NCBI GenBank assembly: GCA_009698815.1
Contig: WLPJ01000002.1
Coordinates: 1-64,000 of the forward strand
Direction: 5' to 3'
Source of the DNA: Actinomycetota bacterium
Lineage (GTDB): Bacteria; Actinomycetota; Actinomycetes; Nanopelagicales; Nanopelagicaceae
Length of the DNA: 64,000 bases
A model generated the notes under the pieces. The model made no database searches, had not been told where the DNA came from, and saw only the letters and a program-made list of their open reading frames with translations. Both the position numbers and the translations under genes were made by a program. This document shows, in pieces, positions 21,795 through 24,276 of this stretch (position 1 is its first letter; each line of letters begins with the position of its first letter).

Positions 21795-22094
21795 TTATGA
21801 AGCTTCGTAAATCTCTGGAACGTCCTTATTAAGAATTAGTGCGCGGTCATCTTCTGATAGACCGCCCCAGATTCCGTATGGCTCGGCAAGAGCGAGAGCT
21901 TGTGCGCGACAAGCAGCAATAACTGGACATGATGCACAGACAGCCTTCGCGGCATTCTCGCGATTGCGGCGACGTGGTCCACGCTCCCCATCTGGATGAA
22001 AGAACATTTCCGCAGGCAAGTCGCGACAAGCACCCTCGTACTGCCATTCCCAATGATCTGCTATTGGAAGCGGAAGTCGTGACTGGTCGGCCAT
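21795..22094 (-). CDS. whiD: WhiB-family [4Fe-4S] regulator, WhiD/WhiB3 type
   Basis: WhiB-like proteins bind a [4Fe-4S] cluster and attach to the primary sigma factor to redirect transcription. This one is 99 aa with cluster ligands Cys23, Cys53, Cys56 and Cys62 and the turn motif GIWGG (74-78). The segments WEWQYEGACRDL and FFHPDGERG match the WhiD/WhiB3 branch, which is also beside groEL1 in Mycobacterium. The start MADQSR is chosen because AAGGAG lies just upstream; longer in-frame starts are not conserved. It has its own promoter (TTGAAC-17-TATGGT). WhiB3 senses redox state in Mycobacterium; the role here is an inference. Confidence 0.9.
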   Translation of the reverse strand: MADQSRLPLPIADHWEWQYEGACRDLPAEMFFHPDGERGPRRRNRENAAKAVCASCPVIAACRAQALALAEPYGIWGGLSEDDRALILNKDVPEIYEAS

Positions 22095-22122
22095 TTTGTT
22101 CTCCTTGCCTGAGTAGGCCTTA

Positions 22123-22151
22123 ACCATACAACCGCGCCACAGGTTGTTCAA
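22123..22151 (-). promoter_or_regulatory. Promoter of the whiD-like gene
   Basis: On the minus strand: TTGAAC (22146-22151), 17-bp spacer, TATGGT (22123-22128), about 30 nt before the ATG at 22094. The 146-bp divergent gap to the MerR/B12 gene also holds a small CACGC/GCGTG hairpin at 22184-22198; no clear + strand promoter was seen. Confidence 0.65.
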
Positions 22152-22240
22152 GTATCTATCGCGCCAAAGCCTGTTCGTTTGATCACGCCTCGAGCGTGTT
22201 TCAAGTGGTGGGAAGTGCCAATAAGCGCGAACATTAGGCC

Positions 22241-23116
22241 ATGGAAGAGCTCCTCACGGTTTCGGCAACCGCACGCCGCATAGGGGTGGCACCCGCCACC
22301 CTGCGGACCTGGGACCGGCGATATGGGCTTGGACCTTCTAGCCACGAATCTGGCGAACATCGCAGGTACTGCGCAAGTGATTTAGCAAAGTTGATGTTGA
22401 TGCGACGCCTGATCACCGCCGGTATGACTACTGCAGATGCTGCGGTCGAAGCGCTCGCGCATAAAGGCGAAGTAGAAGTAGAAAAAATTCTTAAGCACTT
22501 TGAGATCCGCAGTGATGTCGTCGATGCCGTGGTAAAGGCGGCGCAATCACTTGATCGAAATTTTGTAGTAGCAATACTGCGTAAAGATATTGATAAATAT
22601 GGCGTTATTGATAGTTGGCACGAAGTAATTGTTCCGGTGCTAATTATCATCGGTGACATATGGGCAAAAACTGGAGAAGGAATTGAAGTAGAACACTTAC
22701 TTTCTGAAACCATTGCTGGACTAATGCGCGATCTCTCACTTAGCATTAAGAAACCAATCAATGGCCGCCCAGTCCTGTTGGCATCCGTTGGCGAAGAACT
22801 TCATTGCTTGGCCCTTCACGCACTTCATGCCGCTTTGGCTGAAGAAAATATTGAGTGCTATTTCTTGGGCGCCCGCACACCAATCGAGGCGCTAACCTCG
22901 ATGGTTTCGCGGAGCGCGCCGCCTGCGGTATTTCTCTGGGCACAGCTCTCCAAGAATGGGGATCCAAAATACTTCCGTGATATTCCTTCCATAAGACCTG
23001 CACCTCGTTTTATCTTGGGTGGCCCGGGCTGGGACCGTGAAGAATGTGTTGAAGTGGCCTATGTTGATGATTTGACGCTGGCTTGTCAGGAAATTAAGCA
23101 GGCAATCGGGGCTTAA
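22241..23116 (+). CDS. MerR-type regulator with cobalamin-binding domain (CarH-like)
   Basis: The 291-aa protein has an N-terminal MerR winged helix (about residues 4-70: VSATARRIGVAPATLRTWDR, then HRRY), a four-helix B12 cap domain (about 80-165) and a Rossmann B12-binding domain (about 176-290). The cap carries the W-x9-EH motif of CarH photoreceptors (Trp141, Glu151, His152). The lower-ligand motif appears as Glu186-x-His188-x-x-Ala191, with Ala in place of the usual Gly. CarH proteins bind adenosylcobalamin and repress DNA in the dark; light breaks the Co-C bond and releases it. Light sensing here is an inference. It is divergent from the whiD-like gene and 44 bp before guaB. Confidence 0.82.
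   Translation: MEELLTVSATARRIGVAPATLRTWDRRYGLGPSSHESGEHRRYCASDLAKLMLMRRLITAGMTTADAAVEALAHKGEVEVEKILKHFEIRSDVVDAVVKAAQSLDRNFVVAILRKDIDKYGVIDSWHEVIVPVLIIIGDIWAKTGEGIEVEHLLSETIAGLMRDLSLSIKKPINGRPVLLASVGEELHCLALHALHAALAEENIECYFLGARTPIEALTSMVSRSAPPAVFLWAQLSKNGDPKYFRDIPSIRPAPRFILGGPGWDREECVEVAYVDDLTLACQEIKQAIGA

Positions 23117-23133: not shown

Positions 23134-24276
<1,143 letters not shown>

Follow-up and report, generated by a model that had tools for sequence, protein, structure and literature searches.

A LitR-lineage cobalamin-domain regulator and its predicted operator in the promoter of a divergent whiB3/whiD-type gene of Actinomycetota

We analyze a MerR/cobalamin-domain gene within a 64,000-nucleotide stretch of actinobacterial DNA (the window) and propose, with somewhat more confidence than doubt, that it encodes a LitR-lineage cobalamin regulator whose dedicated target is the divergent whiB3/whiD-type gene beside it, and which is a probable dark repressor relieved by light. 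WhiB3/WhiD proteins are Fe–S regulators central to redox responses and development in actinobacteria, and it is natural to ask what controls their own expression. The near-unique, precisely placed operator predicted here would offer a concrete answer on whiB3/whiD expression in abundant lake bacteria and their cultivable relatives. Within the open-licence literature, we found no cobalamin-type regulator of whiB3/whiD, and nothing relevant on a whiD/MerR/cobalamin link or on a Planktophila CarH.

RESULTS

The regulator and its divergent neighbor

The regulator, a member of the LitR/CarH superfamily, is a 291-amino acid open reading frame at 22241–23116 on the forward strand, and a re-check of this frame found the coordinates and residues given for it in the initial annotation to be correct. 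Its domains and key residues are listed below, together with the neighboring gene.

22250–22456, + strand: MerR DNA-binding domain, residues 4–72 (PF13411 MerR_1, 2.5e-12, over the cut-off)
22511–22738, + strand: four-helix cap, residues 91–166 (PF02607 B12-binding_2, 5e-5, over the cut-off)
22661–22663, + strand: cap residue W141
22691–22696, + strand: cap residues E151–H152
22766–23107, + strand: Rossmann B12-type domain, residues 176–289
22796–22813, + strand: E186-x-H188-x-x-A191, in the Rossmann domain
22937–22939, + strand: W233, replacing the motif Ser, in the Rossmann domain
23018–23023, + strand: G260–G261, in the Rossmann domain
21795–22094, − strand: WhiB3/WhiD-type regulator, divergent neighbor and presumed target (Pfam WhiB, 8.9e-23)

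The Pfam B12-binding model (PF02310) matches the regulator with an E-value of 2.6e-7 and a score of 30.9 bits, just below its cut-off of 32.1. An AlphaFold model (mean pLDDT of 84) has a CarH-like cobalamin-domain fold; the best Foldseek matches, like the best solved relatives overall, are all Thermus CarH, with a TMt of up to ~0.83 over the cobalamin domain. By alignment, W141, E151, H152, E186 and H188 correspond to W131, E141, H142, E175 and H177 of Thermus thermophilus CarH, and A191 is aligned to its Gly180. The two proteins share a MerR domain, a four-helix cap with W-x9-EH and a Rossmann domain with the lower-ligand His and GG; the window regulator differs in having Ala for Gly, Trp for Ser and no His132. 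The comparison with Thermus CarH that the initial annotation had called for, together with the Pfam matches, fold and aligned motif residues, thus bears out its assignment of a CarH/LitR-type cobalamin-domain regulator with a MerR domain.

The neighboring WhiB protein has M. tuberculosis WhiB3 as its best solved relative (1.8e-32) and, lying in a groEL-whiB-guaB setting, is an apparent orthologue of WhiB3 (WhiD in Streptomyces). The two genes are divergent and share a 146-bp gap at 22095–22240, as first described. Across the loci compared, the gene order groEL / whiB (divergent) / MerR-B12 / guaB, guaB3, guaA is found repeatedly, both in the order itself and in numerous further families of class Actinomycetes; certain families, such as those of L112, L117 and L132, retain the divergent whiB/MerR-B12 pair alone. 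The search for the same pair in relatives, suggested at the outset, therefore succeeded across the order and the class, including complete genomes of Candidatus Planktophila. As these close relatives include complete genomes, an assembly artefact can be dismissed; conservation of the gene and of its motif residues in same-genus complete genomes and class-wide shows that the locus is no chance product. MerR-B12 homologues are present across class Actinomycetes and the gene is found in most of 201 same-order genomes, where some of the matches listed are weak and cover the DNA-binding domain only, such as those of genus g3, which itself lacks the MerR-B12 gene. Several lineages have whiB without the regulator, and others have lost both.

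Conservation of the cobalamin motif and its departures

We counted motif residues over 93 whiB-linked homologues and compared them with 31 CarH sequences. The initial annotation had held that loss of His188 or Trp141 from close homologues would count against its reading; His188 is invariant (93/93) and position 141 is Trp in 90 homologues and Phe in 3. Glu151 is present in all 93 and His152 in 92. The substitution of Ala for the motif Gly, also pointed out initially, is real but is no private oddity of this protein; it is a family trait, with Ala in 53, Pro in 39 and Thr in 1 of the homologues, against Gly in 27 of the 31 CarH sequences. On the same alignment, Trp in place of the motif Ser is a second family trait, overlooked at first reading: this position is Trp in 90, Tyr in 2 and a gap in 1, and holds small residues in nearly all CarH comparison sequences. 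A Trp here may block the pocket for the cobalamin tail.

CarH homologues have been defined jointly by W-x9-EH and ExHx2Gx41SxV/Tx22-27GG (PMC8156234). The Ado-capping motif W-x9-EH is intact in the window regulator; the second motif is incomplete, keeping E, H, GG and all spacings and carrying Ala191 for Gly and Trp233 for Ser. Against the NCBIfam CarH equivalog model (NF052513), the regulator scores 87.7 bits with a cut-off of 400 bits, which no genome in our 246-genome sample of the phylum passes. Because it falls short of both the strict motif and the curated cut-off, we class the protein as of the CarH/LitR kind and not as a CarH equivalog. A further signature of light-responsive domains has been proposed, consisting of GxxW, EH, GxxH and GxxxP (PMC11796333); by this SignatureFinder definition the window protein has GxxW, EH and GxxxP and lacks GxxH, with Glu185 at that place, and its family likewise lacks GxxH. 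In a single MerR-B12 homologue that adjoins GroEL but no WhiB (L109), Tyr replaces His188 and Arg replaces His152.

A predicted operator within the whiB promoter

Aligned intergenic regions contain a conserved block, TACAACCGCnnCATAGGTTGTTCAAG, which includes the dyad ACAACC-N8-GGTTGT. In the window, this dyad is perfect at 22128–22147, and the shared gap has the following predicted features.

22128–22152: predicted operator copy 1, ACAACCGCGCCACAGGTTGTTCAAG, the conserved 25-bp element
22123–22151, − strand: predicted whiB promoter (−35 TTGAAC at 22146–22151, spacer at 22129–22145, −10 TATGGT at 22123–22128)
22161–22180: weaker direct copy of the operator core, GCGCCAAAGCCTGTTCGTTT, 27 bp from copy 1 (p=0.01)
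22199–22240, + strand: second conserved block (TTTCAAGTGGTG...), just upstream of the regulator's ATG, identified by alignment

The 25-bp element covers the 17-bp spacer of the sigma70-type promoter predicted for whiB, TTGAAC-N17-TANNNT. Among the 64 distinct whiB loci listed, the −35 hexamer is TTGA[AC]C with one exception (GTGAAC), and the spacer is 17 bp long in 59 loci and 18 bp long in 5; across the 59 loci with N17, −10 positions 1, 2 and 6 are fixed and positions 3–5 are variable. A bound MerR-type protein would explain so conserved a spacer. A second operator copy (p<0.01) occurs in about half of the loci (34/67), nearly always at a distance of 26–27 bp, and the tandem copies together cover ~55 bp.

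The predicted operator overlaps a predicted primary-sigma-type promoter, as is found for CarH/LitR photoreceptors. In Myxococcus xanthus, two CarA dimers cover ~55 bp overlapping the −35 element of a primary sigma promoter (PMC8156234), an operator length similar to the span of the tandem copies in the window. CarA itself differs from the window regulator in that it lacks W-x9-EH, does not need B12 and targets the crt operon. The Thermus operator consists of 11-bp direct repeats, nAnnTnnACAn (PMC8156234), whereas the window operator is a tandem dyad; inspection by eye found no tandem repeats of the Thermus kind.

The block at 22199–22240 is probably the regulator's own promoter; many relatives carry within it a dyad, AAGTGG-N9-CCACTT, which is imperfect in the window. 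As for the whiB transcript, the ATG lies 7 nt past the predicted −10 in many Planktophila (L018–L032), a leaderless-like arrangement; the leader of the window's own whiB is longer and contains a Shine–Dalgarno-like AAGGAG.

The operator accompanies the gene across genomes

We scanned 24 genomes, 17 with the gene and 7 without it, for the operator pattern, permitting up to 3 mismatches and using the reversed pattern as a control. The operator was present at the whiB/MerR-B12 locus in 17/17 gene-bearing genomes and was the sole match in 14; the other three (G006, G015 and G021) each had one further match with 3 mismatches, comparable to the matches that the reversed-pattern control gave in several genomes. 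At the same mismatch limit, 7/7 genomes without the gene had no match at the locus, and two of these (G082 and G019) had a single match elsewhere, with 2 and 3 mismatches, respectively. A weight matrix separated the two groups widely, scoring at least 26.8 at 50/50 loci of the order with the gene and at most −5.9 at 8/8 whiB loci without it. On a GuaB tree, gene presence changes 7 times (at least 2 of these changes are forced by well-supported branches), with no exception to the match between operator and gene.

In other families, most whiB-linked loci hold degenerate operator copies that outscore every one of 200 shuffles. The same test shows no such site in L112, L113, L117 and L132, of which L112, L117 and L132 are early-branching. 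A wider regulon was considered and set aside, as the operator-pattern search of the genomes gave no consistent second site.

By comparison across genomes, control of whiB by the regulator through this operator is well supported as a prediction, and the shared gap at 22095–22240 is the most likely site of the regulator's action. The initial annotation had suggested that a light or B12 signal and a redox signal could meet in this gap. The gap keeps its standing as the likely site, but the near-unique operator inside the whiB promoter makes direct control of whiB look likelier than a meeting of two signals.

Family placement and the Streptomyces LitR proteins

In a quick tree that set the 60 family rows (48 linked to whiB, 12 not) against 31 CarH-like proteins from the phylum, the family falls on one side of a branch with an SH-aLRT of 99. 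The deepest rows of this family are whiB-linked, and Streptomyces LitR-like proteins group inside it, apart from other CarH. Several members unlinked to whiB occupy loci of carotenoid type: a sigma factor and a DNA photolyase adjoin L125 and L128, L131 neighbors a lycopene cyclase and L122 a polyprenyl synthase. Streptomyces plasmid records contain relatives 60–64% identical to L128, one of them with a divergent sigma factor. In gene context, which is the basis of this match in place of a comparison with the named S. coelicolor sequence, the sigma-factor/photolyase loci match the published LitR–LitS arrangement. The LitR of S. coelicolor, a photoreceptor dependent on B12, keeps both litS and its own gene repressed until it is exposed to light (PMC5401885), and in S. 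avermitilis, added AdoB12 lowers expression in the dark and raises it in the light (PMC12705666).

The LitR-like proteins L125 and L128 are ~40% identical to the window regulator, are nested in its family, share HxL[PA] and W-[AS]-Q with it and, like it, are encoded divergently from the adjoining gene. That gene encodes a sigma factor, in surroundings of the photolyase/carotenoid kind, whereas the window regulator adjoins whiB. The window's operator is absent at the Streptomyces LitR-like loci and the operator rule is therefore not transferable there. Residues 15–44 of the window regulator, its recognition helix and wing, have a mean identity of 75% to whiB-linked homologues from other orders. 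Many actinobacteria share the pairing with whiB, which seems to predate the Streptomyces carotenoid light switch. Within the family, the LitR-like members from carotenoid/sigma-factor loci of Streptomyces seem to be a derived branch whose target has changed.

DISCUSSION

A proposed mechanism and its alternatives

In the mechanism that we favor, the regulator would bind at the promoter of its divergent whiB3/whiD-type neighbor and would hold adenosylcobalamin (AdoCbl) in a base-off/His-on state. In the dark, AdoCbl-bound oligomers on the tandem sites would bar RNA polymerase from the whiB promoter. The complex would break in green or blue light, or when AdoCbl is lacking, and whiB would be transcribed, so that the WhiB3/WhiD Fe–S regulator would come under light/B12 control. 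Cobalamin binding by the regulator is likely, and AdoCbl is plausibly available in the cell because the same genome encodes a PduO adenosyltransferase and NrdJ, an AdoCbl-dependent ribonucleotide reductase. We infer light sensing by analogy; it is indirectly supported because the nested LitR-like proteins match a published in vivo B12-dependent photosensor. Two simple correlates were rejected: the gene does not track AdoCbl supply, as PduO is also encoded in genomes without it, and it shows no clear pattern with rhodopsin.

A sensor of B12 status would look the same in sequence as a light sensor. Under that explanation, AdoCbl would set binding to the same operator and the same target, with light irrelevant or incidental in vivo; we consider it unlikely, though deserving of attention. 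In Thermus CarH, His132 becomes the upper ligand after light and an H132A variant mostly remains tetrameric in the light (PMC10442372). The equivalent residue is absent in the window protein and is never His in the whiB-linked members examined, and the regulator is also kept by lineages in which no rhodopsin was detected (G007 and G029); both observations speak for a status sensor. However, W-x9-EH is retained, and this Ado-capping motif is linked to light sensing. Streptomyces LitR responds to light (PMC12705666), CtMerR and photocobilins do so while lacking His132 (PMC11796333), and any AdoCbl protein in surface water meets photolysis.

The sign of regulation is most readily read as repression because the spacer is 17–18 bp long. 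MerR activators usually work on 19–20 bp spacers. Activation of whiB by the regulator is accordingly a rather improbable reading, even though many MerR proteins activate from the spacer and LitR is credited with an activator function in the light (PMC12705666); the whiB spacer already has the optimal length.

It is also doubtful, to a greater degree, that the protein is a MerR repressor whose B12 domain binds no cobalamin, or a tail-less or altered corrinoid, with Trp233 in the tail pocket and Ala or Pro for Gly. A Trp or Tyr at the Ser position in 92/93 whiB-linked members, against small residues in the CarH set, would fit such a loss, and Myxococcus CarA works without B12 (PMC8156234); however, a lower-ligand His and E151 that are each kept in 93/93 members are hard to explain without a cobalt ligand. 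Nor does the pairing of Ala-for-Gly with Trp-for-Ser make a strong case for a dead cobalamin domain, since Streptomyces LitR-like members share both changes and Streptomyces LitR is B12-dependent in vivo (PMC12705666). If the LitR identification is right, the Trp and Ala/Pro changes alone do not abolish B12 function.

Just as doubtful is the proposal that another regulator, such as a WhiB-family or developmental one, binds the spacer element: because operator and gene adjoin, their co-loss could be a single deletion of both, and the whole whiB upstream region is changed in most loci that lost the gene, but the element fills the promoter spacer as MerR-family sites do, is near-unique per genome, stays with the regulator in many lineages and follows the gene through every change on the GuaB tree.

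A possible actinobacterial light/B12 circuit

Returning to the favored light-relieved repressor, the comparisons allow a broader reading, which we offer tentatively as somewhat short of probable. An ancient actinobacterial cobalamin/light circuit may exist in which a one-target photoreceptor of the LitR lineage guards WhiB3/WhiD, with AdoCbl held in a remodelled tail pocket (Trp for Ser); the Streptomyces carotenoid LitR would be a later, target-switched offshoot. If so, B12 photoreception extends past carotenoid control and gains a group outside the published CarH motifs, and the remodelled pocket is one that current motif-based searches for B12 photoreceptors overlook.

Other features of the locus

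In the complete genome IMCC26103 (L037), the whiB/MerR-B12/gua cluster has neither groEL nor tsaD upstream, unlike in its relatives. Three genomes of genus g3 (G008, G011 and G019) lack the MerR-B12 gene, a close WhiB3/WhiD-type copy and a short GuaB, and keep other WhiB genes, PduO and rhodopsin. Downstream of the window regulator, GuaB is encoded at 23161–24276 (371 amino acids). The GuaB of other families aligns to it as two pieces with ~0.4 kb between them, which suggests that GuaB in the window, as in most of the order, lacks a CBS-type regulatory insert. A separate 481-amino acid IMPDH-like gene is present in several relatives as well.
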